Of a stretch of 25,021 nt of DNA, positions 1 through 19,039 are shown one piece after another (positions within the stretch are counted from its first letter, which is position 1; the number at the start of each line of letters is the position of its first letter). Origin of the DNA: a virus; the IMG/VR virus record IMGVR_UViG_3300020470_000194, positions 1 through 25,021 of that record; one strand, written 5' to 3'. Made by a program: the position numbers and the translations under genes. The notes below the pieces were generated by a model, which was not told where the DNA came from, did no database searches, and was given only the letters and a program-made list of their open reading frames with translations.

Positions 1-261
1 GCCTGCCTGCGAGTCTCCCAAGTCCTCAAGAAAAACATATGTCGCATAGTCTCCGCCATAACCTGACGGCATATGATAAGGCGTATCCCATGTAAAATAT
101 TGATTGTCTTTTATGTCTACGCAATTTGTAAGCTCTAATTCTTTTAAAATTTCATCTATAATTTCTTGTTCCCCATCTTCTAAACCTGATGAGTCTCCAT
201 ACATGATATAGGTATTCCAATAAATAGGAAAATCATGCTCTACTGTTTGTAAATTTTTCAT
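1..261 (-). CDS. hypothetical protein, 3' end outside window
   Basis: Open reading frame from an ATG at 259-261 that stays open to the window edge (87 codons seen). A good ribosome binding site, AGGAG, lies 8 bases upstream of the start. The visible protein is acidic, with a stretch rich in Glu, Asp and Ile around residues 24-42, and ends at the edge in GDSQAG, encoded by a copy of the TGCGAGTC motif. It follows the gene at 281-529 by 19 bases and is probably cotranscribed with it. I do not recognise the family. Confidence 0.7.
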   Translation of the reverse strand, partial: MKNLQTVEHDFPIYWNTYIMYGDSSGLEDGEQEIIDEILKELELTNCVDIKDNQYFTWDTPYHMPSGYGGDYATYVFLEDLGDSQAG

Positions 262-280
262 TATTTTGATCTCCTATTTT

Positions 281-529
281 TTAAAGATTGTTTAGTCTTT
301 GACTAAAAGGAACTAGGCAGGTATCAGGTTGTTGAACTATCCCTGCATGAATTTTGATATTAAGAATATAAGATTTAATTGTGTCAGAGTAGTCTTGATA
401 AGATCCCTTAAACCAATCAGGTTGCACTTGAGCAGGTGTTTCTGAGCCTTTACCATGTATGCACTCTCTGAGAGTCCACCCATTCTCTTGTAATGTTTGA
501 AAGTAAGGTAGAAAATTGTGTTTGTCCAT
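281..529 (-). CDS. hypothetical protein, 82 aa, first gene of a small operon
   Basis: Start chosen at the ATG at 527-529 (MDKHNFLPYF...), not the longer ORF start at 553, because the recurrent operon leader (TATCTTTTAT immediately before the ATG) ends exactly there and upstream codons would translate the leader. Protein contains the patch NGWTLRECIHGKG and a Trp/Tyr-rich centre. No domain recognised. Followed by the partial gene at 1-261. Confidence 0.65.
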   Translation of the reverse strand: MDKHNFLPYFQTLQENGWTLRECIHGKGSETPAQVQPDWFKGSYQDYSDTIKSYILNIKIHAGIVQQPDTCLVPFSQRLNNL

Positions 530-534
530 AATAA

Positions 535-600
535 AAGATAGTTGCTTGAACACCCTTACTATAAACGATATTGCTACTGTTACAGTATTTTGTAATATAA
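535..600 (-). promoter_or_regulatory. operon leader/promoter, type 1 (copy A)
   Basis: Read on the minus strand: TTACAAAATACTGTAA palindrome-like block (580-595), AT-rich stretch, TATAGTAAGGGTGTTCA, then TATCTTTTAT ending 2 bases before the ATG. The part TATAGTAAGGGTGTTCA is shared almost base for base with the leaders at 1192-1280 and 6048-6136. TATAGT is the likely -10 element. No Shine-Dalgarno sequence precedes the start. Confidence 0.6.
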
Positions 601-606
601 CTTAAC

Positions 607-638
607 AATAAAAAAAGAGCTAATTTTACTTAGCTCTT
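607..638 (-). terminator. factor-independent terminator
   Basis: Perfect 9-bp inverted repeat AAGAGCTAA / TTAGCTCTT (615-623, 630-638) with a 6-base loop, followed on the minus strand by a run of T (609-616). It ends the operon 701-1191 and abuts the next operon's promoter block. Confidence 0.85.
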
Positions 639-700
639 CCTAACCCTTTTTTGTGTGTGTTCGCTTGCCTGCGAGTCTCTCAGCGAGTGCCTGCAAGTCT

Positions 701-922
701 CTAAACCCCCTGTATTAAGTGAGTCTGATTTGTTTTTTCAAGATAAGTTATATCAGCAATAATAAAATTACCCCCAAGCTGTTTTTCAGCTTTTTTAATA
801 ATTTTATGACATCTATTTGAAAAGTCTTTGTAAGTCTCGTTTAGACCTTGAGTAACTTTTTCATAAAGATGTGGCTTAGTAACAAATCTGTCAATTTCTT
901 GAATGATGTAATAATCAGTCAT
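701..922 (-). CDS. hypothetical protein, 73 aa
   Basis: ATG at 920-922 overlaps the stop of the upstream gene as ATGA. AGGAGG lies about 10 bases before the start, so this is a coupled downstream cistron. Protein is rich in Lys, Tyr and Thr (MTDYYIIQEIDRFVTKPHL...), mixed helix-like pattern, no recognised domain. Its operon is closed by the terminator at 607-638; the gap after its stop carries TGCGAGTC at 670-677 and TGCAAGTC at 692-699. Confidence 0.7.
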   Translation of the reverse strand: MTDYYIIQEIDRFVTKPHLYEKVTQGLNETYKDFSNRCHKIIKKAEKQLGGNFIIADITYLEKTNQTHLIQGV

Positions 923-1191
923 TTTTGTAAAACCTCCTTAAAAAGAAAATCGTTTTCTAAAATGTTCCGCACTCTTTCCCTATCTATTGAGTCTCCATCT
1001 CCCCAAGTAAATGTGTCTGAATCTCGAAAATTAATAGTATTTTCGTAAACATTCACAGCCATTTTTATGATTTGTTTTGAAAGTTTTTGATTAGTAACTA
1101 TATGATGTAACGGATAAATTGCATCATACGAACCATAAAAACTATAGACATAATCTATAAATTCTTTTTTTTGTGTAGCTGAAATAATCAT
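919..1191 (-). CDS. hypothetical protein, 90 aa, first gene of operon
   Basis: Start ATG at 1189-1191 preceded by TATCTTTATCAA and the type 1 leader; no Shine-Dalgarno. Protein starts MIISATQKKEFIDYVYSFYG and has an acidic loop with DSDTFTWGDGDSIDRERV near the middle. Not recognised. Overlaps the next cistron by 4 bases (ATGA). Confidence 0.7.
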   Translation of the reverse strand: MIISATQKKEFIDYVYSFYGSYDAIYPLHHIVTNQKLSKQIIKMAVNVYENTINFRDSDTFTWGDGDSIDRERVRNILENDFLFKEVLQK

Positions 1192-1280
1192 TTGATAAAG
1201 ATAGTTTGTTGAACACCCTTACTATAGCTTAAATTTTTGCTTATTAGTATTATTACAGTATTTCTTTACATTTTGTAACA
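1192..1280 (-). promoter_or_regulatory. operon leader/promoter, type 1 (copy B)
   Basis: Minus strand order: TTACA TTT TGTAA palindrome (1266-1278), AATACTGTAATAATACTAATA, a 15-base AT-rich spacer, TATAGTAAGGGTGTTCA, and TATCTTTATCAA before the ATG. Very similar to the copy at 6048-6136, including AATACTGTAATAATACTAAT. TATAGT is the likely -10. Confidence 0.65.
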
Positions 1281-1311
1281 ATAAAAAAAGAGGGGTTTAT
1301 CACTCCCCTCT
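1281..1311 (-). terminator. factor-independent terminator
   Basis: Inverted repeat AGAGGGG / CCCCTCT (1289-1295, 1305-1311), followed on the minus strand by seven T (1283-1289). It ends the operon 1373-2316 and directly abuts the promoter block of the next operon. Confidence 0.85.
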
Positions 1312-1372
1312 AGGTACTATCTTTATATGCCACCCTAATTGTGTGTGCCTGCGAGTCCCTATGCGAGTCTCA

Positions 1373-1825
1373 CTAGCCATAAACTAGGGTGTTGTAGGTT
1401 GTTATCTGCAATATAGAATCTGCTATTGAGCTATCAATAAGTCCTAAGTTATCGTCTTTAAAAGCTTCAAAAATAGTTGCACAATCTTCAGTATTAAGAT
1501 TAGTCTTACCTGAGACTATGTTTTCAATAGCTTTAATAACATCTCTAACTTTGAATTCATGTGTATCTTCTTCAATATCTTCTACTTTAATTTTGGTGTC
1601 TAGTGTCAAGTCTTTAACCCATACACAATTACCCTCGTATTCGTGATTATCTTCTAATATGTAACACCCTGCTGAGTCTTGTTTTATCTCTCCTACAACT
1701 ATATCGTGACACCAATAAGAAGTATCTTGACCCATAGTGCAGAATAAATCTCTAAGATTTTCTAAAGTAATTTCAAAAAAGAAATTAGCGTGTAATTGGA
1801 ATTTTTGTTCGGTTGTTTTAGTCAT
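1373..1825 (-). CDS. hypothetical acidic protein, 150 aa
   Basis: Start ATG at 1823-1825 overlaps the upstream stop in TAATG, with AAAGGAGC a few bases upstream. The protein is acidic, with Cys-containing motifs FCTMGQDTSYWCHDIVV (about 28-44) and a VKVEDIEEDTHEF-like acidic segment in the middle, then a helical C-terminal half. The N-terminal beta-rich look could be a binding domain, but I recognise no family. Second cistron after 1825-2316. Confidence 0.7.
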   Translation of the reverse strand: MTKTTEQKFQLHANFFFEITLENLRDLFCTMGQDTSYWCHDIVVGEIKQDSAGCYILEDNHEYEGNCVWVKDLTLDTKIKVEDIEEDTHEFKVRDVIKAIENIVSGKTNLNTEDCATIFEAFKDDNLGLIDSSIADSILQITTYNTLVYG

Positions 1826-2316
1826 TATTCATGCTCCTTTTTGTTTTCGTCAATGTAATCTAATAACTGATAAGCCATCTGACTAATAACTTCATACTGT
1901 GATTGAGCAATTCTTTCAAATGTACTTTCTTTGCCAGTAGTAAATTCTGACTCGACATAACCTCGTCTAAGGTCTTCTTGTACCCACTTAAGTAAATCAG
2001 CATTGTAAACGTCAACAGAACCATCAATAATCTCATGTATATGATCTTCTATATCTTGTCTGTTCTCATACTCAAGAAAGTCAGATAACAAAGTGTGAAT
2101 AGTGTCATATCGCCAATCGTTTGGTGACTCATCATCATGCAATGGATAAATCAAATCTTGACGTATATGTTCTTTATCTGGGTGGTCATCTTTGATGCTG
2201 TAATAAACTTTATTCATACCACGATCTACACAATCCTGTGATCTGGTGTTAGATGTAAAAGCATCAAACAAATACTGTGTGTATTCTTGAAATTTTGTTT
2301 GAGTTGAATTAGCCAT
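1825..2316 (-). CDS. hypothetical acidic protein, 163 aa
   Basis: First gene of its operon. ATG at 2314-2316 follows TATCTTTAAGCTT with no Shine-Dalgarno. The protein (MANSTQTKFQEYTQYLFDAF...) is Asp/Glu-rich, with DDHPDKEHIRQD and EDHIHEIIDGSVDVYNADL segments, and predicted mostly helical from its residue pattern. No conserved domain recognised. Confidence 0.7.
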   Translation of the reverse strand: MANSTQTKFQEYTQYLFDAFTSNTRSQDCVDRGMNKVYYSIKDDHPDKEHIRQDLIYPLHDDESPNDWRYDTIHTLLSDFLEYENRQDIEDHIHEIIDGSVDVYNADLLKWVQEDLRRGYVESEFTTGKESTFERIAQSQYEVISQMAYQLLDYIDENKKEHE

Positions 2317-2450
2317 AAGCTTAAAGATAGAAGATAAAGTTAGTCAGGTCTTACTTTCGTCCATGTGGTTAAAACCCATGTGGCTAAATGCCTGATATTT
2401 ATACAATAGCAAATTATAATACTATTGTGGTAGTTTGTTACATTTGTTAA
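2317..2450 (-). promoter_or_regulatory. structured leader and promoter of operon 1373-2316
   Basis: Minus strand: TTAACAAATGTAAC block at 2437-2450 touching the stop of the preceding gene, then CAATAGTATTATAAT, giving a good -10 TATAAT, then about 90 bases of leader. The leader holds a direct repeat (plus strand CCATGTGGTTAAAA and CCATGTGGCTAAAT), TCAGG..CCTGA ends that could pair, and a double TATCTT(C/T) tract before the ATG. It is longer than the other leaders in the window. Confidence 0.5.
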
Positions 2451-2689
2451 TAATCAATTTGGAATCCAGCAGTTCTTGTGAACTCATCAAGAAACTTTTG
2501 GATAACATAAGGGTTTAAAGTCTTGTTATGAAAGACTTTACAAAACTGGGCTGCATGAAGAATTGTTTCTTCATCCCACTCGTTACCAGTAGTGTATTTA
2601 TCGTTGAATTTCATTTGATCTCTAACTGCTTGAGAGTAATTTAACTCAACTGTTACATCTTCAAATTTTTTTGTTTTTCTTGTAGCCAT
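2447..2689 (-). CDS. hypothetical protein, 80 aa
   Basis: ATG at 2687-2689. Begins MATRKTKKFEDVTVELNYSQ and is otherwise a mixed-charge helical-looking protein with one Cys (FCKVFHNKTLNPYVIQKF). Its own promoter appears to be the TATAAT at 2716-2721, about 27 bases before the ATG, immediately after the CCTAGAAG hairpin. Unrecognised. Confidence 0.65.
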   Translation of the reverse strand: MATRKTKKFEDVTVELNYSQAVRDQMKFNDKYTTGNEWDEETILHAAQFCKVFHNKTLNPYVIQKFLDEFTRTAGFQIDY

Positions 2690-2715
2690 AATAATTGATA
2701 AAAATAAGGGTTAGC

Positions 2716-2750
2716 ATTATACCTAGAAGTTTTTTCAAGCCCCTTCTAGG
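2716..2750 (-). promoter_or_regulatory. hairpin-plus-promoter, type 2 (copy 1)
   Basis: An 8-bp inverted repeat CCTAGAAG / CTTCTAGG (2722-2729, 2743-2750) is followed directly, on the minus strand, by TATAAT (2716-2721), GCTAACCCTTA and the gene start at 2689. The hairpin overlaps the stop of gene 2735-2932. A second copy with the same flanks lies at 4134-4168. It may act as an operator or as an attenuator of upstream transcripts. Confidence 0.5.
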
Positions 2751-4587: not shown

Positions 4588-4809
4588 CTATGCCTGCGAG
4601 TCTTCCGAGTCTTCCAAGTCTTCCTCTTCCTCTTCCTCCTCTTGTGGTTCATACATTTCAAAGAAATCCCTAATTTTCATATCAGGATAATTCATAAGTT
4701 CATCTATAAGTTCTCCAAAACAATTACTTGAACTGTATCGGTAAGAGTAGATTGTCATAAGCTCGTCTACACATTCACTCATAAATTCATCTCTTTCTTT
4801 TTGATTCAT
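4588..4809 (-). CDS. very acidic small protein, 73 aa
   Basis: ATG at 4807-4809, 4 bases after the upstream stop. Helical N-terminal part with aromatic and acidic residues (MNQKERDEFMSECVDELM..), then from about residue 53 a nearly uninterrupted Glu/Asp tail ending EDLEDSEDSQA. Phages often encode such proteins as DNA mimics or enzyme inhibitors, but this is only an analogy. The TGCGAGTC motif at 4595-4602 lies in its last codons. Confidence 0.65.
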   Translation of the reverse strand: MNQKERDEFMSECVDELMTIYSYRYSSSNCFGELIDELMNYPDMKIRDFFEMYEPQEEEEEEEDLEDSEDSQA

Positions 4810-6137: not shown

Positions 6138-6833
6138 TTAGAATAATATTCCTTGTCTGTTTATATTATCGTAACTATCGTATCGTACATTATCACCTTT
6201 TGGATATGGCTCTATTGCGTAAGTTAACGAGTCTCTCATAGATTTCTTTTGCTTGCGAGTCCCTAAAAAATAAAAATATCTATGTTTTCTTGGTCGATCT
6301 AAAGTATATAATCTATCTCCATACATTTCTCTAAGTTTTAAAATTTTACCCTTTGCGAGTCCTCTGCCTACTTTGTCCATCAAAGATGCACTATGCAAGT
6401 GTTCAAGTCCTTTAACCTTATAATCAAATCTTTTTGCTGAAAGTCCAGTATAAATAAAATTACAAGCTTGATAAATATAACCATGATGATGTAGAGATGT
6501 ATCTGCATAACTTACAACAACATTTGGTGTCGATAATTGTTTTAGCGTTTGAGATACAAAAAAAGATAAAACATTTTTTTCTAAACCTTCATCAACAACT
6601 AATCTATTTAACTCCAAAAAAGTATCTTGAAATTTGCCTGCAAAAGCATATTTAACTAAAGTATGAGCAACTGGTCTTCCGTAGCTACAAATACCAACAA
6701 TAAATTTATTTTTGTATAGTCCATAAGCATGAGAAACACTTGGAATACGTTTTGCATAATGTTTTTGTGTAAACCACTCAACATATTCATTCGTACTAAG
6801 CTTGCGAACTATATATTGATCTTTAAGGCTCAT
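6138..6833 (-). CDS. Mom-like DNA modification protein (adenine carbamoylmethylation family), 231 aa
   Basis: Resembles phage Mu Mom, a GNAT-fold protein that converts some adenines in phage DNA to a carbamoylmethyl form, blocking host restriction. Visible motifs: HY at 25-26, ELNRLVV (74-80), KNVLSFF (86-92), and the core YADTS...HHGYIYQACNFIYTG between 109 and 130, which is the most diagnostic block of the family. Length (231 residues) is close to Mu Mom. Last gene of the operon that begins at 7981; its start overlaps the upstream gene by 11 bases and lacks a clear Shine-Dalgarno, suggesting coupling or low expression. No Com-like zinc regulator, which controls mom in Mu, is obvious beside it. 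The exact modification made here cannot be read from sequence. Confidence 0.8.
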   Translation of the reverse strand: MSLKDQYIVRKLSTNEYVEWFTQKHYAKRIPSVSHAYGLYKNKFIVGICSYGRPVAHTLVKYAFAGKFQDTFLELNRLVVDEGLEKNVLSFFVSQTLKQLSTPNVVVSYADTSLHHHGYIYQACNFIYTGLSAKRFDYKVKGLEHLHSASLMDKVGRGLAKGKILKLREMYGDRLYTLDRPRKHRYFYFLGTRKQKKSMRDSLTYAIEPYPKGDNVRYDSYDNINRQGILF

Positions 6834-8064: not shown

Positions 8065-8286
8065 TTAGTTTTGACTGTCTTGAAATAATTGGTCAATAGC
8101 TTTTTCTAGCAACTGACTTGCTAGAACACTATGTTGTACAGGGTCAGTCTTAACTCCCCCATGCAAGTCCCAAGCCCTGCCACAAGTAGGGCAAGCCTTG
8201 TATTTGTAACCATTGGCGAGTGCTTTTAATTTAGTTAAAGTAGATTCTTCTATTCGGCAATTAACTTGTTGCCTTTGGTTTGACAT
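8065..8286 (-). CDS. small protein with a CxxC knuckle, possible DNA-binding regulator, 73 aa
   Basis: Begins MSNQRQQVNCRIEESTLTKLKALA, which looks like a short beta strand followed by a helix as in ribbon-helix-helix proteins, then CPTCGRAWDLHGG (about 32-44) and a C-terminal helix HSVLASQLLEKAIDQLF. A single CxxC could bind metal as a dimer. A regulator is plausible because it has its own consensus promoter and sits between two regulated operons, but this is inference. Confidence 0.6.
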   Translation of the reverse strand: MSNQRQQVNCRIEESTLTKLKALANGYKYKACPTCGRAWDLHGGVKTDPVQHSVLASQLLEKAIDQLFQDSQN

Positions 8287-8341: not shown

Positions 8342-9121
8342 CTACCAAGTCTTTTTCCATGTATCTTTAATAGCTGTAGCCCAACTTGGTGCAATTGAAG
8401 TTCTGCCAATTTTATCTTGCAAGTCTTTATCTAAAACCTTAACAACGATTCCGTCAGTTGGATAGCGACTAAATATCAACGAGTCTTGCCATTGACTATG
8501 TAATTGCTTGACTTTATTTACAACATCTTTGTTAACTTTAATATGACCGCATACATGAAAACCCCACTTAACAAGTTGTTGTAGGTTAGAGATTTCTGTA
8601 CCCTTAGCATCAAATATTTGAAAAGCACAAAAAGACAAGCCCATGCCTGATGGTTGCTTCTTGCGTAAATGACCTGCTGCGAGTCTCTGTGATCTAGCAG
8701 GTATAAGCCCCTTGCCATATAACTCTCCTCTAATATCAACAGTACCTTTTGCAATAATATGTTTCGGTAAATCCTCAATCATTCTCATGCAATATGTTTT
8801 ATCTATACCTTTGCGAGTCCATGCTTTAACCAATAAACCATCTACATATCTAACAGCCATAGCACAGCCATCTATCTTAGGCTCAACAATTACAGGTGTA
8901 TTTTTTGGTAGATAAGAATACCACTCTGCAAAAGGTAAAGTACCAAGTCCTGATAATACACAACCCTCTTCTACTTTCTTAAGTGCAGGGTGTTTTGGGT
9001 TAGATTTTATAAGTGCTTGCTTTATCGCATCAAATTGTTTGTCAGATATTATTGATCTACCTGCTCTATAAAGATCATTGTGATATAAAAATTCTTTTGC
9101 TAATTCGTCTGCGATTGACAT
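8342..9121 (-). CDS. minimal NAD+-dependent DNA ligase (LigA-type adenylation domain), 259 aa
   Basis: Seals nicks in DNA using NAD+. The N-terminal helix-rich part (YHNDLYRAGRSIISDKQFDAI) matches the NMN-binding Ia domain. Adenylation motifs follow: KIDG with catalytic Lys82, RGE at 131-133, SQRLAAGHLRKK (144-155), CAFQIFD (165-171), DGIVVKV (223-229) and WATAIK (247-252). The protein ends 7 residues after motif V, so the OB fold, zinc finger, helix-hairpin-helix and BRCT domains of the roughly 670-residue cellular enzyme are missing. No second gene with these domains is seen in the window. The start ATG follows TATCTTTATCATAATT. Confidence 0.88.
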   Translation of the reverse strand: MSIADELAKEFLYHNDLYRAGRSIISDKQFDAIKQALIKSNPKHPALKKVEEGCVLSGLGTLPFAEWYSYLPKNTPVIVEPKIDGCAMAVRYVDGLLVKAWTRKGIDKTYCMRMIEDLPKHIIAKGTVDIRGELYGKGLIPARSQRLAAGHLRKKQPSGMGLSFCAFQIFDAKGTEISNLQQLVKWGFHVCGHIKVNKDVVNKVKQLHSQWQDSLIFSRYPTDGIVVKVLDKDLQDKIGRTSIAPSWATAIKDTWKKTW

Positions 9122-9163: not shown

Positions 9164-9928
9164 TTACTTTGCAAGTCTTTTTATCTCTTCTTTCCAATAT
9201 TTATAAAATCTATCATCTGCAAGTCTTTTTACTCTCATCTTAAATGTTGATTGTGGGTTTTGTCTTGGGGGTGGATTAAATAAAAATAATGGTGATAAGT
9301 ATGATCTGTACTTACCTCTACTTGGTGTTACTTCTCTATATATACCTTTTCTATATTTTCCAGTATCACTTCTAAAAGCAATTACTCTTGCATCTTGAAT
9401 TTTTCCATTTTTTCTTGATTTAGGCGGTATTACTTTATCTCTTGTTTGACCAAGTGCAATCATAGTATTTGAATAAGTTGATTTTGTGACCCTATTATTT
9501 TTTCCCATTTTAATAAATCTACTCTGTGTTACTGCAAATGGATAATCACCTTGATTCATATAACTTCTATTTTTTAAAAATTGAGTAAATAAAGTTCCAT
9601 ATGCTTTTGTTGAACCTCCACCTATAGGGGGGTAAAGATATTTACCTGCTGGATTGCCTTTACCGATTACATCTTTAACTCCAACAAATAAACTTAATCC
9701 ACTTTGCTTTGTAAAAGTACTATTTAATGTAAAAAAAACAGCACTTTCAAAAGGTTTAAACCCATGTTTACCTAAATATGTTTGAGCTATTAATCCATTT
9801 TTACCTTTTAATTCCTTTCCAAGTTTTGTCAAAGTTCTTTTTGCAGCAAATTCAGACTGACTTTTTTCATAAACATTAAGTCTTTTTTTGATTTTACTAA
9901 AGTCATATATTATGGCTGCACTTTTCAT
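9164..9928 (-). CDS. possible virion assembly (minor tail/connector-like) protein, 254 aa
   Basis: Start at the ATG at 9926-9928 (MKSAAIIYDFSKIKKRL); a TTG at 9956-9958 would add 10 residues. A basic protein: helical N-terminal part with FAAKRTLTKLGKELK, then KPFESAVFF, VGVKDVIGKGNPAGKYLYPP and IGGGSTKAYGTLFTQFLK. This order ('PF..A', 'KGNPAGKYL.P', 'GG..K..') resembles a phage family placed near head-tail connector or minor tail Z proteins. The location between ligase and primase is unusual for a structural gene, so the call is tentative. Confidence 0.5.
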   Translation of the reverse strand: MKSAAIIYDFSKIKKRLNVYEKSQSEFAAKRTLTKLGKELKGKNGLIAQTYLGKHGFKPFESAVFFTLNSTFTKQSGLSLFVGVKDVIGKGNPAGKYLYPPIGGGSTKAYGTLFTQFLKNRSYMNQGDYPFAVTQSRFIKMGKNNRVTKSTYSNTMIALGQTRDKVIPPKSRKNGKIQDARVIAFRSDTGKYRKGIYREVTPSRGKYRSYLSPLFLFNPPPRQNPQSTFKMRVKRLADDRFYKYWKEEIKRLAK

Positions 9929-10181
9929 ATCGAGTCTTGTTTTTTTATATATTAGCAAGTCTTAAAGTGTGAGACTAGGTGTTTATTAGGTGTCCATAGT
10001 GTCCTATGTGTGCCGACCTTCCCTATAGAGTTTCCTAAACCCCTATTTTTCCCCTATATGCTCCCTATACTCCCCTCTCTCCTTACTTATTATACTTTAT
10101 AGTAAAAGGTATAGACACTATAGACACGCTCTATATCGCAAGTCTTGACATTGTTTGCGGTGTCCATAGCGTGTACTAACC
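9929..10181. other. 253-bp intergenic region with iteron-like repeats; candidate replication origin
   Basis: No ORF. Contains GTGTCCATAGTGTC (9990-10003), its near reverse complement GACACTATAGACAC (10114-10127), and GTGTCCATAGCGTGT (10160-10174). GACACGCT occurs at 10123-10130 and again at 10197-10204 inside the primase gene end. Between the repeats, about 10015-10085 is strongly pyrimidine-biased on the plus strand, followed by an AT-rich stretch. Position beside a primase-helicase gene suits an origin. It may also hold the promoter of 9164-9928. A hairpin TAACCTC/GAGGTTA (10177-10195) covers the primase stop codon. Confidence 0.45.
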
Positions 10182-12341
10182 TCACACAGAGGTTAAGACA
10201 CGCTCCGAGTCTCGAATGTAGACCCATTTGCGACAGCCCCTACTTCCTCTACGCTTTTTTTCGTAGCCTAGATTCTTTAAAATCGTTGCAACTTGCATTT
10301 GATCGTATCTTGTTTGTCTTTCGATTGGCTTTTCAATAGCTTCAGACAAAACAAGTTCTGTTGTTAATTCTCTATGAAAGTTTTGTGGTGTTTCGCAGAA
10401 AGATTCGATAACAGCTTTCCAAGGCGATTCGATTAAATAATCTAAATTTTCCTCATTTACTTTTAATTCGTTTTCTTTTGTAAGGTATGTAGTCTCGCCA
10501 TTCTTGTAAGCCATCACGACAGCCGACCATATCGAGTCCCTCTCTGCAAGTAATCCCTCGCAATCTATAGGGTTTTCGATTCCAATATTTTCTCCTAGCT
10601 TGATTATCCAAAATCTACGATTCCCAGTCTCATCTACAAGAAATCCGTCATGTCTGTTCGTACTTCCAACAATAATTCCTCTTCTAGGAAATGCCTCAGT
10701 AACTTTGCCATAAGGAACTCTAAAAACATCTGTTTCTTGAGATAAAAAAGATTTTATCTCCCCTGCCATTTTTTTAGAAGTTACGGCTTCTAGTTCAGCC
10801 ATTTCGCAGATCCAACTTCTATGCAAGATCATAAGTGAGTCTTTTCCGTTAATGTCTCTAAGTCCATCACTAAAAAACTCTCCTCCCAATACAGACCAAA
10901 ATGTAGATTTTCTTGACCCTTGTTCTCCTAACAAAACACAAGCATTATCAAATTTATGTGGTGGTTCATAGGCTCTTGTTACTGCTGCAATAAGAGTTTT
11001 TTTCAACATATCATCATAGATAGTTGGTTCTGGTAGATGTGCATCTTCTGGTCTTAAATAAGTGCTTGCGAGTCTGTCGATATAAGCAGGCGATACAGTT
11101 TTATAAACTTTATTTAAATAATTAACTACAGGATTGTATTCATATTCTCTTGCTATCTGCACAACACAATCAAATGCTGTATCCTTATTACATTTATAAC
11201 CTTGTCTTGCAAGTTCGAGATAATATCTATCTATAGAAGTTGACCCCTGACAAACTTCTCCATTTAATTCTATTTGTTGAGTAAATATGTTGTATCTAAA
11301 TGCGTGTTCGCCATTGTCTCTGCGAGTCTTTAACAGATTTAATAATTCATTAGCTTCTATTTTTTGTAATTTATCTGAGTGAACTAATGTAGGATTATCT
11401 GGATTATCTGGATTTATAACTTTCATTACCTTTGGTGGCTTATAACCATGTTGCATCGCCCAGTACCAAAAGCTATTAGCTTCTATTTTTTGCCCTCCAG
11501 ACTTAGCAACTTGATCGAGTCCTCCCCATGCTGGCGAGTGTTCTTTCATAAGAGTTATTGCATCAGCAGAACTTTTGCCTGCATCTTCGCAAGCTTTTAT
11601 AAGACCCCATAAAATATTGCGATACATATGATATGTGTTGGAGCCGGGTGTTCTTGGTGGTATGTGTGCGAGTGCTTTTTGTACTGTCGCAAAATCTTCT
11701 TTACGATATTCTTTAAATTCTACAGATTCTTTATTTTTTTCATATTGTCTTTTTGTTGGCAAACATTTCTCTAAATCTTTTACTGTATATTTTTTATCTG
11801 ATGTATGAATAATCGTAGTCATACCACCATGAGTACCATCATCTTTCATATGATAAGTTCCGGGCAAACGCATCACTCTTGATGGGTTTTTCAAAGCCCT
11901 ATCTGCATCTGCATAATCTAGTAATCTTTCCTGTATAGGCTTCCAAGTCTCTGGTTCTATTGCTTTTTTTAATATCCAATAATTATGAATTGACTTACCT
12001 CCTGTATCTATTTGTATTGATGGTTCTGGCAAGCCTAACTCTTTCCAAATATAAATTTGCTCTGATTTTGGTATATCATCATGCTCATAAAAAAATGCTC
12101 TACATCCTGTTATCGAGGAATCTGTATCCTCGCCATCATTAATTACGAGATAAACACCTCTACCTTCTTCTTGGCAATGTTTTATCCAATCTCCATTTGC
12201 ATTAGATTTTTTACCACGATCTCTTTCTTTTAGTGGATGACCTTTAGGAAAGAATGATCTTAAACGAACTTTACGAATATCTTTTCCAAGAAGTTCTAAA
12301 AATGACCGCCATTGGCTGCGGTCTAACTCAAATGCAGACAT
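10182..12341 (-). CDS. primase-polymerase and helicase fusion (VapE/DUF5906-type), 719 aa
   Basis: Replication initiation protein. N-terminal archaeo-eukaryotic primase-like domain: acidic motif YEHDD (85-89), GGKSIHNYW with the S-x-H motif (117-119), and DRALKNPSRVMRLPGT (147-162). A helical linker resembling the primase C-terminal domain follows (about 230-300). The C-terminal VapE-type P-loop ATPase has Walker A GEQGSRKST (472-480), Walker B WICEMAEL (510-517) and the sensor/arginine region VGSTNRHDGFL...GNRRFW (558-578). Both catalytic halves look intact. Start ATG follows TATCTTT without Shine-Dalgarno. It sits next to the candidate origin, and the C-terminal tail includes a winged-helix-like segment (about 640-719). 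Confidence 0.88.
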   Translation of the reverse strand: MSAFELDRSQWRSFLELLGKDIRKVRLRSFFPKGHPLKERDRGKKSNANGDWIKHCQEEGRGVYLVINDGEDTDSSITGCRAFFYEHDDIPKSEQIYIWKELGLPEPSIQIDTGGKSIHNYWILKKAIEPETWKPIQERLLDYADADRALKNPSRVMRLPGTYHMKDDGTHGGMTTIIHTSDKKYTVKDLEKCLPTKRQYEKNKESVEFKEYRKEDFATVQKALAHIPPRTPGSNTYHMYRNILWGLIKACEDAGKSSADAITLMKEHSPAWGGLDQVAKSGGQKIEANSFWYWAMQHGYKPPKVMKVINPDNPDNPTLVHSDKLQKIEANELLNLLKTRRDNGEHAFRYNIFTQQIELNGEVCQGSTSIDRYYLELARQGYKCNKDTAFDCVVQIAREYEYNPVVNYLNKVYKTVSPAYIDRLASTYLRPEDAHLPEPTIYDDMLKKTLIAAVTRAYEPPHKFDNACVLLGEQGSRKSTFWSVLGGEFFSDGLRDINGKDSLMILHRSWICEMAELEAVTSKKMAGEIKSFLSQETDVFRVPYGKVTEAFPRRGIIVGSTNRHDGFLVDETGNRRFWIIKLGENIGIENPIDCEGLLAERDSIWSAVVMAYKNGETTYLTKENELKVNEENLDYLIESPWKAVIESFCETPQNFHRELTTELVLSEAIEKPIERQTRYDQMQVATILKNLGYEKKRRGSRGCRKWVYIRDSERVLTSV

Positions 12342-12752: not shown

Positions 12753-13022
12753 TTATTTATAAGAATAATCTGGTTTATCAGAAAACTTGCTTCGGAGTTT
12801 ATCTAACATAGCTTGTGTGTCTTGCTCAAAACCATCATCTAGTTTTTCTTGTCGTTGTTCTTCAAACATAGAACTAAATCTGCCACTATAATATTTTTCT
12901 CTAACAAGATTTCGTAGATATTGGCTAGTAGACACACCATTTTTATCGGCTTCTCGTTTTACAAACTCATGCCGATCTGGTTCGAGTTGAAAAATAACTC
13001 GAACATATTTTTTGTCATCCAT
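12753..13022 (-). CDS. ribbon-helix-helix-like DNA-binding protein, 89 aa
   Basis: ATG at 13020-13022 chosen (MDDKKYVRVIFQLEPD); a GTG at 13055 would overlap the upstream gene and a palindrome. The beta strand YVRVIFQLEPDRHEFV, then KREADKNGVSTSQYLRNLVREKYY, fits an RHH fold (strand, helix, turn, helix). The C-terminal 45 residues are charged and probably disordered or for oligomerisation. A perfect 14-bp palindrome lies 17 bases upstream, suggesting autoregulation. Confidence 0.7.
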   Translation of the reverse strand: MDDKKYVRVIFQLEPDRHEFVKREADKNGVSTSQYLRNLVREKYYSGRFSSMFEEQRQEKLDDGFEQDTQAMLDKLRSKFSDKPDYSYK

Positions 13023-13039
13023 GTTATAAAAATTAGTTA

Positions 13040-13053
13040 GGTTTGTACAAACC
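13040..13053. promoter_or_regulatory. perfect 14-bp palindrome, probable operator
   Basis: GGTTTGTACAAACC is its own reverse complement. It lies between the stop of the ParB-like gene and the start of the RHH-like gene, next to an inverted repeat CCACTAA/TTAGTGG (13052-13072). RHH regulators bind such short palindromes. Confidence 0.55.
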
Positions 13054-13054
13054 A

Positions 13055-14026
13055 CTAAGTTAAATTAGTGGCTTGCGTTGATGATATTTCCATTATCTCA
13101 TTTGTAGATGGAAGATCAATAAATACTTTAAAAGGGTCTTCTAATGCTTGTCTTATGTAACTTGTATCTGTACCACACATAAAATGAAATGCTGATCTTA
13201 ATGTATAAGCCCAAGCATCAGCACTATTCCAATAAGAAGATTTTAAAGATCTATCACAAGTTTTTTTATAAAGTAATTGTGCTGCCCTATCTACAGGTTT
13301 AATATCCTTATCTACACCATTTATAGGTGATGCCATACCACAAGAAACTATATTTAAAAAATGAATTGCCCTTTCTTTCGGAGTCATGTCGTGATTTAAC
13401 TTACGCTTTCCAGATTGATTGTTATAAATCATTTCTGCATAAATTTTTAAAGCTGCTGCAATAAAAATATTGCGTGTTTTTGAGCAATGTAATTTATTTA
13501 TATAACTTAAAAACTGATTATGTTTTAGATAAGTTTGAGCAACAATACTATCGTGGCAAGGTTTTGCAAATTGTTGTACACCAGTAGCAACATTTACTCT
13601 AGCCATTGCATGACGAATAATAGAACAATCTTTTCTATTTATGGCGATACCACTTACAGTAATCCTGTCGTGCATAACTCTCGACTTACCAACATCCATA
13701 ATTAACTTAGATTTATCAGGCAAATTTCTTACAACTAAAAAAGGTTGTGTAAGGCCAGTTTTTATAACTGCTAGTAACCTATGCTGTCCATTTACTAATA
13801 CATTTTCTGTATTAAAACAAATAGCAGAATCAGAAAGAATGAAACGATCAGTTTTCATTTCTTTTTCTAATTCCAAAATATTACTTAGAACAACTTTTCT
13901 ATTATTTTTAAAATTACGACCCATATAAATTTGAGCCTGTTCTGGAGTAATAAATTCAATACCTACTTGAACATCTTTGTACTGCTCAGTAAGTCTAGCT
14001 GTAATTTCTTGTGCTGTTAGTGTCAT
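13055..14026 (-). CDS. ParB-like nuclease-domain protein, 323 aa
   Basis: Start moved to the ATG at 14024-14026 (MTLTAQEITARLTEQYKDVQ), because the longer ORF start at 14050 overlaps the -10 element. The N-terminal half resembles phage ParB/sulfiredoxin-fold proteins: ITPEQAQIYMGRN.., then VLVNGQHRLLAVIKTG with the family's G-Q-H-R box, and VVRNLPDKSKLIMDVGK. The C-terminal half is helical. Phage proteins of this class occur in replication blocks; role in segregation, regulation or nuclease activity is not known. First gene of the operon leading into the regulator, VRR-NUC and possibly primase genes. Confidence 0.7.
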   Translation of the reverse strand: MTLTAQEITARLTEQYKDVQVGIEFITPEQAQIYMGRNFKNNRKVVLSNILELEKEMKTDRFILSDSAICFNTENVLVNGQHRLLAVIKTGLTQPFLVVRNLPDKSKLIMDVGKSRVMHDRITVSGIAINRKDCSIIRHAMARVNVATGVQQFAKPCHDSIVAQTYLKHNQFLSYINKLHCSKTRNIFIAAALKIYAEMIYNNQSGKRKLNHDMTPKERAIHFLNIVSCGMASPINGVDKDIKPVDRAAQLLYKKTCDRSLKSSYWNSADAWAYTLRSAFHFMCGTDTSYIRQALEDPFKVFIDLPSTNEIMEISSTQATNLT

Positions 14027-14111: not shown

Positions 14112-15800
14112 TCAGAACCCAAAGAACTGGTCATCATTGTAGTTATTTCTAGGTTTTTGCTTCTTTCTAAGTTCCCATCTTTTCTTAGCCCAGAATTGAT
14201 TATGACCACGTTTCTCTGCGAGTCTCATCCAATCCTTTAATGTCTTACAACTCCATTCTTCTAACTTTTTTCTGCGTTGTTGTTCTGATCTAATTACAGC
14301 AATATCATCAATGTCTACTTCTGCTAATCTTACTAAACTTAAAAATTGTTCTGTAAATTTTTTCTTTGCATAATCTGTATGTTTTGAATGAATACCATAC
14401 AAGTCTTTTTTACAAAAATCTTTAAATTGTGCTTCTGTAAAACATTTAGCACTTGGATTTTTGCGGTCTAAAGAAAACTGAAAACCTGTTTTTCTTTGGT
14501 CATCATCCCAAGCATAAAAATATAATTTTGCACCTGTAGATTTTTCTATAATTGGATCTCCTTCATCTAATCTCAATTCTTTTTTCATCTTTACTAACTC
14601 ACCCTCTTCATATGTAATTTCTCTTTTTCTTGTTTCTTTTTGATGTCCACATACAGGACATATTGGTTGTGGTCTATATACTGCAAAACAAACCTCGCAA
14701 GTTTCTACTGCTGGTGCGAGTTCTCCTTTTCTTTTTGTTTTTGCTTTTTGGTGTAAATCATATTCTCTTATATCATCAACAAATCCATGACGTTTTGTAT
14801 TACCTACATGATCTAAAACTATTGCAACTTTATTAGGTTCTGGCCTTAAAACTCTACCTACCTGTTGTATATATAAAGCTTCTGATTGTGTTGGTCTAAG
14901 AAGAATAGCGACATAGCATCCCTCAACGTCAAATCCTTCTGATACTACATCTATAGAAACTAATATCTGTACCTTTCCATTTTTAAAATTATCTATTAAT
15001 GTTTTTCTTTCGTCAGATTTCATAGAACCTGTAATAAGTTCTGCTGTATATCCAGCCTGTTTAAATTTATTAGTCACATACTGTCCATGTTTTACTGATA
15101 TGCAAAATGCGATAGCTGGTTTATTCTGTCCAAGTCTTCGATAATTCTCTACTGCATCACCAACAATATCAACCTTGTCTAACTCATCTTCTACCTCTTT
15201 TTTGCTGTAATCACCTCTAATTGTCCTTATTTTGTCTAAATTTAGCTTATTTGGGGGTGCATATACTTCATGTTCAGCTAAATATTTTTGTTCTACAAGT
15301 TCTGGAATAGTAGAGCCAACTATAAGATTATCAAATATTTCTCCTAACCCTGCACCTGTCATTCTCATAGGTGTAGCAGTTACTCCAAGTTTTATTGCTT
15401 TTTTGTAAAAATCAAATATCTTTCGCCAAGAATTAGCTACTGAATGATGAGCTTCATCAATAATTATTAGATCAAACTGATCTGGATTGTTTAGTCTATT
15501 AATTAAAGTTTGCACAGATGCAACTTGTACATTACTCTTAAATTCCTTACGGCCTGCTGCAATTATTCCGTACTTAACATTAGCTTTAGTTAATTTATCG
15601 CCAGCCTGATCTATTAATTCTTTTCGGTGTACGAGTATAAGAACATTAGAACCTTTTAGCCCTGCAAGTCTTGTTATTTCAGAAAATATAACAGTCTTGC
15701 CTGCACCTGTAGGAAGAGTAAGCAGCACATTTTTGTTGCCTGCTTTAAAAGACTTTCTTATGTTAGAGATTGCTAAATTTTGATAATCCCTTAGTTGCAT
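14112..15800 (-). CDS. superfamily 2 DEAH-box DNA helicase, 562 aa
   Basis: Translocates on or unwinds nucleic acid with ATP. Motifs in order: QLRDYQNLAI (Q-like motif at 2-11), Walker A LPTGAGKT (29-36), LVHRKELIDQ (Ia, 57-65), IIIDEAHH (DEAH 115-118), TATPMR (141-146), then the second RecA domain with VSEGFDVEGC (287-295) and QQVGRVLRP (312-320). A four-Cys zinc ribbon CEVC...CPVC follows at 368-384. The C-terminal 175 residues are basic and unknown. Family is that of UvrB/RecG-like phage and SSL2/RAD25-like helicases. Single-gene transcript from the divergent promoter at 15805-15850. Confidence 0.88.
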   Translation of the reverse strand: MQLRDYQNLAISNIRKSFKAGNKNVLLTLPTGAGKTVIFSEITRLAGLKGSNVLILVHRKELIDQAGDKLTKANVKYGIIAAGRKEFKSNVQVASVQTLINRLNNPDQFDLIIIDEAHHSVANSWRKIFDFYKKAIKLGVTATPMRMTGAGLGEIFDNLIVGSTIPELVEQKYLAEHEVYAPPNKLNLDKIRTIRGDYSKKEVEDELDKVDIVGDAVENYRRLGQNKPAIAFCISVKHGQYVTNKFKQAGYTAELITGSMKSDERKTLIDNFKNGKVQILVSIDVVSEGFDVEGCYVAILLRPTQSEALYIQQVGRVLRPEPNKVAIVLDHVGNTKRHGFVDDIREYDLHQKAKTKRKGELAPAVETCEVCFAVYRPQPICPVCGHQKETRKREITYEEGELVKMKKELRLDEGDPIIEKSTGAKLYFYAWDDDQRKTGFQFSLDRKNPSAKCFTEAQFKDFCKKDLYGIHSKHTDYAKKKFTEQFLSLVRLAEVDIDDIAVIRSEQQRRKKLEEWSCKTLKDWMRLAEKRGHNQFWAKKRWELRKKQKPRNNYNDDQFFGF

Positions 15801-15857: not shown

Positions 15858-16094
15858 ATGAAAGACCCAAACAACTGGAGCAAGCTACAAAAAGAAACAA
15901 GCGAAGAGTTTGTAGACAAGTTATTGCTTCATGTAAGAACAAATAATTTTGAAGCGTTTTGTTTTGCTGTTGATCGTGGTATGTGGTATTACGGCCAAGA
16001 AAAACTTACTTATCTTATGCACAAAAAACTTATTGCAAAAATCTGCGAATGTGGTGAGCTAGATAAATTTCTTAAGTGGGGAGAAAAATTCTAA
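15858..16094 (+). CDS. hypothetical protein, 78 aa, first gene of recombination operon
   Basis: ATG 27 bases after the plus-strand -10 element, no Shine-Dalgarno. Begins MKDPNNWSKLQKETSEEF; helical, aromatic-rich (FCFAVDRGMWYYGQEKLTYLM), with a CECGEL pair of Cys. Overlaps the nuclease start by one base (TAATG). Unrecognised; its place suggests a role in recombination or early control. Confidence 0.7.
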   Translation: MKDPNNWSKLQKETSEEFVDKLLLHVRTNNFEAFCFAVDRGMWYYGQEKLTYLMHKKLIAKICECGELDKFLKWGEKF

Positions 16095-16936
16095 TGATAT
16101 ATAAACCACTTGTAATGTCTAACGAAGAGTATCATGGCAAGACTAAGTACGAGTCCTCTTCTACTATTCGCAAAGCGTTAATTAGCCCTAAAAAATATTT
16201 ATATGATAAAACTGCTGAAACTGTACCTACTAAAGCTATGGAAGAAGGTACTGCTGTTCATACATTTTTTCTAGAAAATGAATTATTTAAAAATAGATAT
16301 TGTTTTAAACCTAAAGCATTTAATGGTAGAACTAAAGAAGGTAAACAATGGATGGAAGAGCATGGTCATTTAAATATATTGGCTGCTGAGTGGGAAGAAA
16401 ACCTAATCCATATGAACCATAGCTTTTTAGATAGTCCAGCAAAAATAATTTACGATAGAAAAGGATTAACAGAATTAAGCTATTTTAGTGAAGATTTAGG
16501 CGGAATAAGGGCAAAATGTAGACCTGATTGGATCTCTAGTGATGGTCATACAGTAGTAGATTTAAAAACTACACAGGATGCGAGTCCTAAAGGTTTTCAA
16601 AAATCTATAGCAAATTTCGGCTACCATATTCAAAGTGCATGGTATATGCGAGTCCTTAAGAACTTAGATGTACCTGTAAAAGAATTTATATTTATTGCTA
16701 TAGAAAAAACAGCACCCTTTTGTGTTGGAGTCTATCGTGCTAGTGAAGAAATGCTAGAAGAAGGTAATAAAAAAGTAGATGAAGCTATTGACAAAATATT
16801 ATGGTGCAAAGAAAACGATTCTTACCCAGACTATACTCCTAACGAAATAGAAACAATCGACTTACCTTCTTGGATGAAGAAAAAACAGCAACCAGAATAC
16901 GACCCTAATTTAGATCAGGAGATTCAACTTTACTGA
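16094..16936 (+). CDS. RecE/exonuclease VIII-like PD-(D/E)xK nuclease, 280 aa
   Basis: Double-strand DNA exonuclease partner of RecT, resecting ends for annealing. Start set at the ATG in TAATG at 16094, not the in-frame codon at 16076. Motifs: SSSTIRKALISP (21-32), GTAVHTFF (52-59, the G-x-x-x-H box), RPDW (Asp145), VVDLKTT with Asp156 and Lys158 of the DxK pair, and IQSAWYM with the Q-x-x-x-Y box (180-184). All expected catalytic residues are present. The order of genes (nuclease, RecT, SSB-like) matches phage recombination modules. Contains two copies of TGCGAGTC, at 16579 and 16647, read in different frames. Confidence 0.85.
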   Translation: MIYKPLVMSNEEYHGKTKYESSSTIRKALISPKKYLYDKTAETVPTKAMEEGTAVHTFFLENELFKNRYCFKPKAFNGRTKEGKQWMEEHGHLNILAAEWEENLIHMNHSFLDSPAKIIYDRKGLTELSYFSEDLGGIRAKCRPDWISSDGHTVVDLKTTQDASPKGFQKSIANFGYHIQSAWYMRVLKNLDVPVKEFIFIAIEKTAPFCVGVYRASEEMLEEGNKKVDEAIDKILWCKENDSYPDYTPNEIETIDLPSWMKKKQQPEYDPNLDQEIQLY

Positions 16937-17067
16937 TGAGAAAAGAATTTCCCTACGACCCATACGAAGGTCAGGTCTTTTACGACCCAGAAACAGAAAA
17001 AACTTGGGTGTTTGCTCGTGACGAGTGGGTAGACATCACTTATGAGGACATTACCTATGACATCTGA
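16936..17067 (+). CDS. hypothetical acidic protein, 43 aa
   Basis: ATG overlaps the nuclease stop (TGATG) and the ORF overlaps the RecT start. Encodes MRKEFPYDPYEGQVFYDPE..., rich in Asp, Glu, Tyr and Trp (KTWVFARDEWVDI). Coupling on both sides suggests a real cistron. Function unknown. Confidence 0.55.
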   Translation: MRKEFPYDPYEGQVFYDPETEKTWVFARDEWVDITYEDITYDI

Positions 17068-17677
17068 AATTACTAAAACAAATACAGAGGGCGAGTCCTC
17101 TATCTATCAATCTACCGAGTCTTTTGAGTTTGCTCAAAGACAAGCTAAAAGTCTTGCAGAATCTAATCTTGTGCCAATAAGCTATCAAGGTCAAAAAGGA
17201 TTATCTAACTGTCTTGTTGCATTAGAAATGAGTAAGAGAATGAATCTTAGTCCTCTCACAGTAATGCAAAACCTTAATATTATTCATGGCAGACCAAGTT
17301 GGAGTGCTGCTTTTGTATCTAGTCAAATACTAGGTTGCAATAGATTTAAAAACTTTGACTATATAGTTACTGGAAAAGATGATACTTTATCTGTGCAATG
17401 CCAAGCTATAAGACTAGAAGATAACAAGCTTGTAAAAGGCACAGCAGTATCTATGAAGATGGCTAGACAAGAAGGCTGGACTAAGAATAGTAAGTATCAA
17501 TCTATGCCAGAGCTAATGCTAAGAAACAGGGCTGCTACTTTTTTCGGTAGACAATATATACCTGATCTTTTATTAGGTGTGCAGACTAGCGAGGAAGTAG
17601 TTGATATAGAACCTATTGATGTTACTACGAGTAATGTTGAGGTAGTACAGGAGGCTAAAGATGACTTCGGATTCTAA
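17057..17677 (+). CDS. RecT-family single-strand annealing protein, 206 aa
   Basis: Start taken at the ATG at 17057 (MTSEITKTNTEGES), with GAGG 10 bases upstream; an ATG at 17042 would add five residues. Family-typical block: VPISYQGQKGLSNCLVALEM, then MNLSPLTVMQNLNIIHGRPS and WSAAFVSSQIL, followed by GTAVSMKMARQEGW and the MLRNRAATFFGRQYIPDLLLG C-terminal core. It pairs ends exposed by the nuclease gene upstream. The short form, about 206 residues, lacks the long C-terminal tail of Rac RecT. Confidence 0.85.
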   Translation: MTSEITKTNTEGESSIYQSTESFEFAQRQAKSLAESNLVPISYQGQKGLSNCLVALEMSKRMNLSPLTVMQNLNIIHGRPSWSAAFVSSQILGCNRFKNFDYIVTGKDDTLSVQCQAIRLEDNKLVKGTAVSMKMARQEGWTKNSKYQSMPELMLRNRAATFFGRQYIPDLLLGVQTSEEVVDIEPIDVTTSNVEVVQEAKDDFGF

Positions 17678-17852
17678 GAAAGAGTTTTTAACACCTAGCG
17701 AACTTGCTGAAAGATGGCGAGTTCATATTGGTTCTGTTGAAAGATGGAGAAGAGAAGGCAAACCGCCTTCTTTCTACACTATTAATGGAAAGATCCTCTA
17801 TAAGTTGGCTGAGATAGAGGATTTAGAATCAGCCAAACGTCAATCTAATTAA
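17661..17852 (+). CDS. helix-turn-helix protein, excisionase/MerR-like, 63 aa
   Basis: ATG at 17661 inside the end of the recT-like gene, with GGAGG 6 bases upstream. Winged helix-turn-helix pattern: LTPSELAERWRVHIGSVERW, RREGKPPSF and a wing INGKILYKLAEIEDL. Such proteins act as excisionases, repressors or replication accessory factors. With no integrase visible, a transcription regulator of the recombination operon is as likely as an excisionase. Confidence 0.75.
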   Translation: MTSDSKKEFLTPSELAERWRVHIGSVERWRREGKPPSFYTINGKILYKLAEIEDLESAKRQSN

Positions 17853-17861
17853 TTTTTATCT

Positions 17862-18245
17862 ATGGACTTTAAATTACCACTTGCAGTTTTCTCACAAACA
17901 GATGAAGACCACAAAAAGCGTTACAAGGAAAACTACGATCCTAATAAGAACTATCCTAAGTATTCTGGTGTTATGCAGATTACAGAGGCCGATATTATTA
18001 AACTATGTGAGTATGTACAGAAAGCAAAGCCAGAACATAGCGACTTTCATGGAGAAGGTGTAGTTACTATAAGAGCTACAGGCTATCTAAATGAGAGTAA
18101 AGCTGGCAAGAAGTATATCGGTCTTAACCTAGAGCCTGACTATAAAACTATGAAAGCTATAGAGGAAGCTGATGCGAATGACTCTGCGAGTCCCTCACCT
18201 GCACCTAGAACAGTAGACAAAAAAGAAGAGGAGTTTCCTTTTTAA
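17862..18245 (+). CDS. SSB-like single-strand DNA-binding protein, 127 aa
   Basis: Follows the nuclease, RecT and HTH genes. The C-terminus is a low-complexity Ser/Pro/Ala linker followed by the acidic tip KKEEEFPF, which closely resembles the SSB tail that recruits partner proteins. The N-terminal 90 residues have beta-strand patches (VVTIRATGYLNESK, YIGLNLEPDYKTM), compatible with an OB fold, but are not a close match to cellular SSB. Identification rests on the tail and context. Confidence 0.6.
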   Translation: MDFKLPLAVFSQTDEDHKKRYKENYDPNKNYPKYSGVMQITEADIIKLCEYVQKAKPEHSDFHGEGVVTIRATGYLNESKAGKKYIGLNLEPDYKTMKAIEEADANDSASPSPAPRTVDKKEEEFPF

Positions 18246-18249
18246 CATT

Positions 18250-18293
18250 GGGGCTATAAGAGTTTTTGATGAGTTTTCTCTTATGTAAGCCCC
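18250..18293 (+). terminator. terminator-like hairpin after the recombination operon
   Basis: Long stem: GGGGCT (18250-18255) with AGCCCC (18288-18293), and ATAAGAG (18256-18262) with CTCTTAT (18278-18284). No strong T run follows (CCTCACTTTTA), so efficiency is uncertain. Confidence 0.6.
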
Positions 18294-18335
18294 CTCACTT
18301 TTACTAGATTTTAAGCCAAATTAAGCTAAAATAGA

Positions 18336-18740
18336 ATGAAATTATCCTTATCTATGCCTTTAACTTTTAATAGTAAACAAATTGATAAAGTTGTCACGAT
18401 TGATGATGTCGGGTCTTTATCCAATCCAGAAGTTTTGTTGTTGAAAGATGAGCTAATGACTGCTATCAACAATATGGATAACTATATTAAGAAATTTAAA
18501 CAAGAAAAACAAGAAAAATACGATAAAGATTGGCATCAAAAAGTAAGACGCAAACAACAGGTATGCAAAGCTTTTTTATCACAACTTATAAGCCTAGATC
18601 ACGATGAAAGTTTATTTCGATCTATTTATGATAAACATTTTTCTCAAATTATCTTACAATATATAGATAGAAACGACTTTAGAATTATTCACGACAAAGC
18701 ACGTTCTTTAGCTATTGCTGAATTAGAAAAAATAACATGA
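18336..18740 (+). CDS. hypothetical protein, 134 aa
   Basis: ATG at 18336 follows TAAAAT, a possible -10, at about 18326-18331, 5 bases upstream, hence a leaderless or poorly defined start. The protein has a Lys-rich coiled-coil-like middle (about 45-70) and helical C-terminus. Overlaps the next gene by 4 bases (ATGA). Not recognised. Confidence 0.6.
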   Translation: MKLSLSMPLTFNSKQIDKVVTIDDVGSLSNPEVLLLKDELMTAINNMDNYIKKFKQEKQEKYDKDWHQKVRRKQQVCKAFLSQLISLDHDESLFRSIYDKHFSQIILQYIDRNDFRIIHDKARSLAIAELEKIT

Positions 18741-19039
18741 CACCAAAATACGTTAACGGAAAAAGAAGTAACAAATCAGAATTGAAATTACAAAAATTAA
18801 AAGAAAACAAGCTAGAAGAATTAGCAAAAAAATTAGATTCTGATATTAGAGGTTACGATCATATTGTTCAATATGCAGACAATCATACTGCGAGTCTTCG
18901 TAGCGATTGGGTTGATGAAAATATTAGAACAATTATTATTAAACATAATTATCAAGTTAATAAAGTTTCAAAAATGTTAATTCGTGATTTTACAGCCGAA
19001 GAACAGGAGGCAGTTGATAATGCAATCACAGAATTTTAG
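18737..19039 (+). CDS. hypothetical basic helical protein, 100 aa
   Basis: ATGA overlap with the gene before. Basic N-terminus (MTPKYVNGKRSNKSELKLQK) then helical segments, ending FTAEEQEAVDNAITEF. The repeat motif TGCGAGTC lies at 18889-18896 in its coding frame (T-A-S-L). Probably DNA-associated, judging by charge only. Confidence 0.6.
   Translation: MTPKYVNGKRSNKSELKLQKLKENKLEELAKKLDSDIRGYDHIVQYADNHTASLRSDWVDENIRTIIIKHNYQVNKVSKMLIRDFTAEEQEAVDNAITEF

Follow-up and report, generated by a model that had tools for sequence, protein, structure and literature searches.

A strand-locked DNA word in the early half of a family of uncultured tailed phages, and a candidate protein for its reading

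What reads a short DNA word that a phage repeats many times on one strand and not on the other? The question is raised by the viral IMG/VR record IMGVR_UViG_3300020470_000194, analyzed here over 25,021 bp (positions 1 to 25,021, hereafter the window), in which the 8-mer TGCGAGTC occurs 16 times on the plus strand and not once on the minus strand. These counts are exactly those of the initial annotation, which had proposed a polar signal serving Chi-like recombination control, replication, packaging or modification. We report that the word is real, selected, phage-specific and polar, and that it matches none of the one-way DNA signals tested. A match to the word or to a close variant of it is called a box throughout.

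Abundance, polarity and maintenance of the word

The earlier estimate of less than one expected copy holds, shuffles of the window giving 0.17 copies of the 8-mer and the highest single shuffle three. Among 8-mers scored against an order-2 Markov background TGCGAGTC ranks first (0.20 expected, log10 p of -24.5), and the nested forms CGAGT, CGAGTC, GCGAGTC, TGCGAGTC and CTGCGAGTC head the lists for lengths five to nine. The base that follows the 16 copies is always C (7) or T (9). The shorter CGAGTC is present 28 times on the plus strand and twice on the minus strand (1949 and 21272), with 2.4 copies expected in all, and CAAGTC is a weaker polar variant. As had been claimed, gene direction and frame are irrelevant to the sites, which lie in all three frames, in genes of both directions and between genes; nor does the orientation switch at any position, including the candidate origin that had been placed near 10 kb. 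The last exact 8-mer ends at 18896, in agreement with the limit of about 18.9 kb first noticed, and lone copies of CGAGTC follow at 20716 and 21478.

The window encodes a 719-aa PrimPol-VapE replicase (10182-12341, minus strand) which matches a solved PrimPol AEP domain, a VapE-like structure, Pfam VapE and the PrimPol of cyanophage S-2L. Relatives were gathered through this protein, and every contig was oriented by its PrimPol gene. The polarity of the word recurs in about 25 uncultured, mostly marine tailed-phage contigs of the family that the replicase defines, at roughly one copy for each kilobase of the early half, and in essentially all enriched members the strand of the word relative to PrimPol is identical. 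Pooling of 14 early regions gives 117:0 by strand, and the variants found there yield the consensus W[G>C>A]C[G>A]AGTCYY. When 15 early regions were divided by context, all frames counted, the plus:minus counts were 141:1 for leftward genes, 63:4 for rightward genes and 103:2 for noncoding DNA; site density was 0.77/kb in leftward genes, 0.98/kb in rightward genes and 2.4/kb in intergenic DNA. There is also a subclade (G020, G021, G022, G051 and G056) in which an early block of 2-3 kb runs rightward and the boxes keep their original strand. This rightward block, at about 2.2-6.4 kb, comprises 6-9 early genes, some of them homologous to leftward genes of the window. Enrichment and polarity thus hold in the relatives, and they hold over a near-complete genome as well, that of G002 (52,363 bp), in which the 8-mer counts 13:0 and spans 2.7-21.5 kb.

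Two relatives, G065 and G066, whose PrimPols are 66% and 73% identical, are without the word (0:0 in 26 kb for G065). No convincing substitute polar word was found in the word-less relatives; GGTGCTGG, seen in G065, G066 and G052, falls mainly within leftward structural genes and was read as codon-driven. Other contigs with two close copies of TGCGAGTC were mostly unrelated ones with repeat arrays, or else members of the same family. Repetition of other kinds was seen in L146-L147 (G010), where CCCGCA and ACCCGC are over-represented and non-polar (14:12 and 13:11), and in L258 (G059), which has long tandem repeats of 44 and 88 bp, rich in GGCAAGGC, at about 13.0-13.7 kb. In a text search of the literature for the word, occurrences among the matches listed look like chance.

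Selection was assessed against a codon-shuffle null, in which synonymous codons are permuted within genes and both proteins and codon usage are preserved. The early coding DNA of the window holds 22 copies of CGAGTC on the plus strand against 1.7 expected, and the minus strand has no comparable excess; the structural halves of G002 (0 against 0.6 expected) and G056 have none either. These shuffles argue against codon or protein effects as the cause of the word. In comparison with a relative at 76% nucleotide identity only 6 of the 21 alignable sites are in common, and the private sites arise by point substitution within gap-free alignment, density and polarity being maintained while site positions shift. 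For single sites this also disposes of one recent repeat expansion as their origin, a possibility that the initial annotation had raised. The word is kept by selection, and its sites are gained and lost via point substitution. Strand lock, gene independence, selection and conservation across the family make a polar signal well supported.

Distribution of boxes, arrays and genes

In near-complete genomes (G002, G056 and G054) the early half carries 10-25 merged plus-strand sites and the structural half 0-1; the final 26 kb of G002 contain no CGAGTCY on either strand. The structural operon is leftward and box-free. With the PrimPol start as zero, the interval from -14 to -2 kb has 1.0-1.7 sites/kb and the 2 kb just ahead of the start 0.74/kb; on the far side most values are 0.1-0.4/kb, apart from another peak at +4-6 kb, and past +14 kb they are zero or close to it. 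Since the small terminase gene (TerS) adjoins the left side of the box zone in G014, G053 and G065, and the terminase is lambda gpA-like, the zone appears to begin beside the presumed cos.

Nearly every strongly enriched genome also has tandem arrays of 3-10 boxes in a single orientation, mostly intergenic and all located outside the window; in G001 such an array lies about 0.7 kb to the left of window base 1. Array pitches are 7, 8, 9, 10/12, 11, 16 and 24 bp, and the spacing of sites shows an 8-bp periodicity. In the neighbourhoods read, arrays lie to the left of a leftward gene, within about 35 bp of its stop codon and mostly a few to tens of bases beyond it, and a leftward terminator-like hairpin follows the array in all three genomes checked (G002, G010 and G053). 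The sites within leftward genes lean towards the 3' ends, with 6, 8, 16, 17 and 30 in successive quintiles.

All boxes listed for the window lie on the plus strand. At its left end TGCGAGTCT is found at 8..16, in the leftward open reading frame (ORF) 1-261, and again at 670..678, in intergenic DNA on the transcript side of a leftward terminator hairpin (641-612). A weaker box, TGCAAGTCT at 692..700, stands immediately past the stop codon of the leftward ORF 701-922, and the placement of these two boxes beside the terminator is like that of the arrays. Two more intergenic boxes follow, TGCGAGTCC at 1350..1358 and TGCGAGTCT at 1362..1370, the latter barely past the stop codon of the leftward ORF 1373-1825, and a pair 9 bp apart, TGCGAGTCT and TCCGAGTCT (4595..4612), occupies the 3' end of the leftward ORF 4588-4809, which encodes an EDSEDS tail. 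The gene at 6138-6833 (minus strand) encodes a Mom-family DNA modification protein (Pfam Mom, E 5e-35) and contains a core box CGAGTCT at 6228..6234 and two copies of TGCGAGTCC at 6254..6262 and 6354..6362. At 8342-9121 (minus strand) there is a gene for a short DNA ligase-like protein, matching an NAD-dependent adenylation domain, with CGAGTCT at 8480..8486, TGCGAGTCT at 8678..8686 and TGCGAGTCC at 8812..8820. The early gene at 9164-9958 (minus strand), with a PHROG 'minor tail protein' match, has CGAGTCT at 9931..9937; almost all relatives have this gene too, placed between ligase and PrimPol. The PrimPol gene itself holds five boxes, namely TCCGAGTCT at its 3' end (10204..10212), CGAGTCC at 10533..10539 and 11516..11522, and TGCGAGTCT at 11067..11075 and 11321..11329, and an SF2 helicase gene has TGCGAGTCT near its 3' end (14217..14225).

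The rightward genes are no different in the strand of their boxes. A recombination module at 16076-18245 (plus strand) is composed of a RecE-like PDDEXK gene, a gene for a RecT-like annealing protein and a small conserved gene. In the first are TACGAGTCC at 16148..16156 and TGCGAGTCC at 16579..16587 and 16647..16655; in the second are GGCGAGTCC at 17090..17098 and, 24 bp after it, CGAGTCT at 17116..17122; ORF 17862-18245 contains TGCGAGTCC at 18185..18193. The last exact 8-mer belongs to TGCGAGTCT at 18889..18897, in the rightward ORF 18737-19039, and TACGAGTCC at 20714..20722 marks the right edge of the zone.

A candidate reader and a possible one-way action

The word is probably read by a phage-made protein. 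A gene-presence table together with a profile search across the family picked out a 73-aa protein, encoded at 8065-8286 on the minus strand, with a Q-x-N-x-R strand and with a CPTCG zinc knuckle inserted between its two predicted helices. Its assignment as an Arc-like ribbon-helix-helix (RHH) protein is weak (PHROG 'Arc-like repressor', E 0.0014; Pfam RHH_3 sub-threshold). The putative strand and RHH-like helices resemble those of P22 Arc, whose DNA contacts are Gln9, Asn11 and Arg13 (PMC12645479), whereas the zinc knuckle between the helices sets the protein apart, and the Arc operator is a single 21-bp TAGA site and not a dispersed one. The RHH gene is carried by each of the 25 contigs in the main enriched group, and each has a plus-strand excess, with p<1e-3 in 24 and 0.02 in G063; in G065, which is nested inside the enriched clade, gene and word are both missing. 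Presence of the word tracks that of the gene, a link which these sequence comparisons make suggestive, and we infer with moderate confidence that the 73-aa protein is the reader. A second RHH-like gene lies at 12753-13055 on the minus strand (Pfam NikA-like, E 8e-4) and is present in 4 of 24 relatives.

Our preferred, still tentative, reading is that 5'-W[G/C/A]C[G/A]AGTCYY-3' is an asymmetric box that binds a phage-encoded protein and acts one-way on a tracking machine. Such a machine is called for by the strand lock over kilobases, since a bound protein alone would be indifferent to the direction of a distant site. The zinc-knuckle RHH protein, a product of the replication operon, would bind the boxes; its Q-x-N-x-R strand would supply the triad of Arc base contacts, and a two-fold dimer would suit the pseudo-palindromic box core, GA-G-TC. 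Box orientation would be read by a machine travelling on the DNA, for which leftward RNA polymerase is, at low confidence, the most economical candidate, as it best accounts for the box-free leftward structural operon and for arrays at the ends of leftward transcripts. Bound boxes would then be one-way, 'stoperator-like' transcription stops, silencing leftward transcription across the early region, including late read-in from the leftward structural operon, which would itself have to stay box-free.

The model for such stops is the cluster A mycobacteriophage L5, in which more than 20 short asymmetric oriented sites across the genome are bound by the phage repressor (PMC9283540). The likeness lies in dispersed, asymmetric and strongly over-represented phage sites. 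Orientation in L5, however, follows transcription, whereas here leftward and rightward genes have the word on the same strand; L5 sites are in short intergenic spaces, whereas most window sites are inside ORFs; and the L5 reader is a two-domain helix-turn-helix protein, the candidate here an RHH protein.

Several observations weigh against this one-way stop. An RHH dimer is symmetric and alone cannot read chromosome orientation, boxes are equally dense in rightward genes, in which the only transcription for a leftward stop to catch would be antisense or read-through, and the lean towards 3' ends may merely mirror weak protein constraint there. The AlphaFold monomer is of low confidence (predicted local distance difference test, pLDDT, 61), its helices fitting an RHH fold and its strand not being formed. 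The word is present in G014 (7:0, p 3e-5) and, with a weaker excess (9:2), in G059, both of which have no recognisable RHH homologue; enrichment is weak in G053 and G063, which do have the gene; and a distant homologue is encoded on a phage contig (L291, 83 kb, GC 0.50) without the word. The tree-aware test of word against gene has two informative pairs and is not significant, and for this reason the link is a lead and not proof.

Other readings and the meaning of the word

An unlikely though serious alternative is a replication signal, the boxes being iterons or priming sites and the array an origin or part of one; on the same unlikely footing, single boxes would load or initiate PrimPol-VapE on the lagging template as a fork advanced in one direction. 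The word is found in a PrimPol family, the candidate box reader sits in the replication operon, direct-repeat arrays resemble iterons, and a polarity that ignores genes comes naturally with replication; the replicase is a rival reader. The PrimPol of phage NrS-1, which shares the PrimPol-HBD-helicase architecture, starts at an 8-nt template word, TTTGGTTA (PMC8718748). NrS-1, however, carries two copies of its own word, one per strand (PMC7102993), as opposed to tens on one strand of half a genome here. Primase sites would be expected on the lagging template over the whole replicated genome, but the structural half is nearly empty, which goes against the genome-wide replication or packaging polarity first considered; the orientation does not flip at any point; and the word is missing from G065 and G066 in spite of their closer PrimPols.

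Rather improbable is a Chi-like function, in which boxes would shield the DNA from a host nuclease of the RecBCD/AddAB type entering at the cos end, the end that would be first injected and exposed on the concatemer. Like Chi, the boxes are polar, dispersed, indifferent to genes and beside a vulnerable end: the early zone adjoins terS and the presumed cos (G014, G053 and G065), the terminase is of the lambda gpA type, and density peaks between the cos side and the PrimPol start before vanishing far to the right. But enrichment was found in none of 200 picocyanobacterial, 299 Pseudomonadota and 59 further chromosomes, nor did any come near phage density, the host itself not being established; most of them have about one copy per 60-300 kb, compared with about one per 1.5 kb in the phage. 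The host Chi proposed in the initial annotation is disfavoured because of this survey. Segregation words of the KOPS/FtsK type would likewise be expected to be enriched in host chromosomes, which the present word is not in the roughly 560 surveyed. Moreover, the word is not G-rich, and box-free sister phages exist. No tRNAs were found as a clue to the host; that the phage is a cyanophage, as had been supposed, is plausible, Synechococcus phages being the closest cultured relatives for several of its proteins, but falls short of proof.

A partition or genome-organising role, with the RHH protein binding the array as an Omega/ParG-like centromere and spreading to dispersed boxes, is improbable. 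Omega, an RHH protein, binds 7-10 consecutive non-palindromic 7-bp repeats, the parS heptads of pSM19035 (PMC9499535). Arrays of 7- and 8-bp pitch occur here too, in genomes that also carry the candidate reader, whose RHH call is weak. The phages differ in having, besides the arrays, about 20 single boxes spread across 20 kb and all pointing one way. That orientation should be irrelevant to partition over kilobases, and Omega complexes tolerate mixed heptad orientations (PMC9499535); no ParA ATPase was recognised in the searched window genes, the rest of G002 having been read by eye only.

Very unlikely is a mark of packaging or injection polarity, read by the terminase or at entry. The boxes are polar and cluster at what, in a lambda-like phage, is the last end to be packaged and the first to be injected, but the small terminase is as conserved in the word-less G065 (68%) as in G056 (70% identity). 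An inversion of early and structural parts able to separate packaging from strand was not found.

Restriction or modification polarity is hardly credible, whether of the T7/type III kind (T7 keeps its EcoP15 sites in a single orientation) or as target of the phage Mom protein, whose gene is in the window; GAGTC fits SASNY, the target of Mu Mom. The bias is enrichment on one strand and not depletion on the other, and the word, once suggested as a modification site, does not track the Mom-type gene, which is patchy in the family and absent from the word-bearing G008, G013, G020-G022, G051, G054 and G056.

By the features tested, then, the word is not a stoperator, a Chi or a primase site, although it may work like a stoperator. 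The preferred reading, a phage protein bound to asymmetric boxes and acting one-way, would describe a marking system new in phages, in which the early half would have one strand labelled by a small zinc RHH protein; we hold this possible but doubtful. With the same reserve, some 20 dispersed asymmetric boxes and an array would give a tracking machine its direction independently of genes and host. As there is one small candidate protein, synthetic DNA allows a direct test of the reader, and the lack of cultured phages is no obstacle to it. The word is phage-specific, conserved over large protein divergence and selected despite sitting in genes in every frame. Such strand-locked words are uncommon; the known examples, Chi, KOPS and stoperators, have each revealed a machine whose reading of DNA goes one way.

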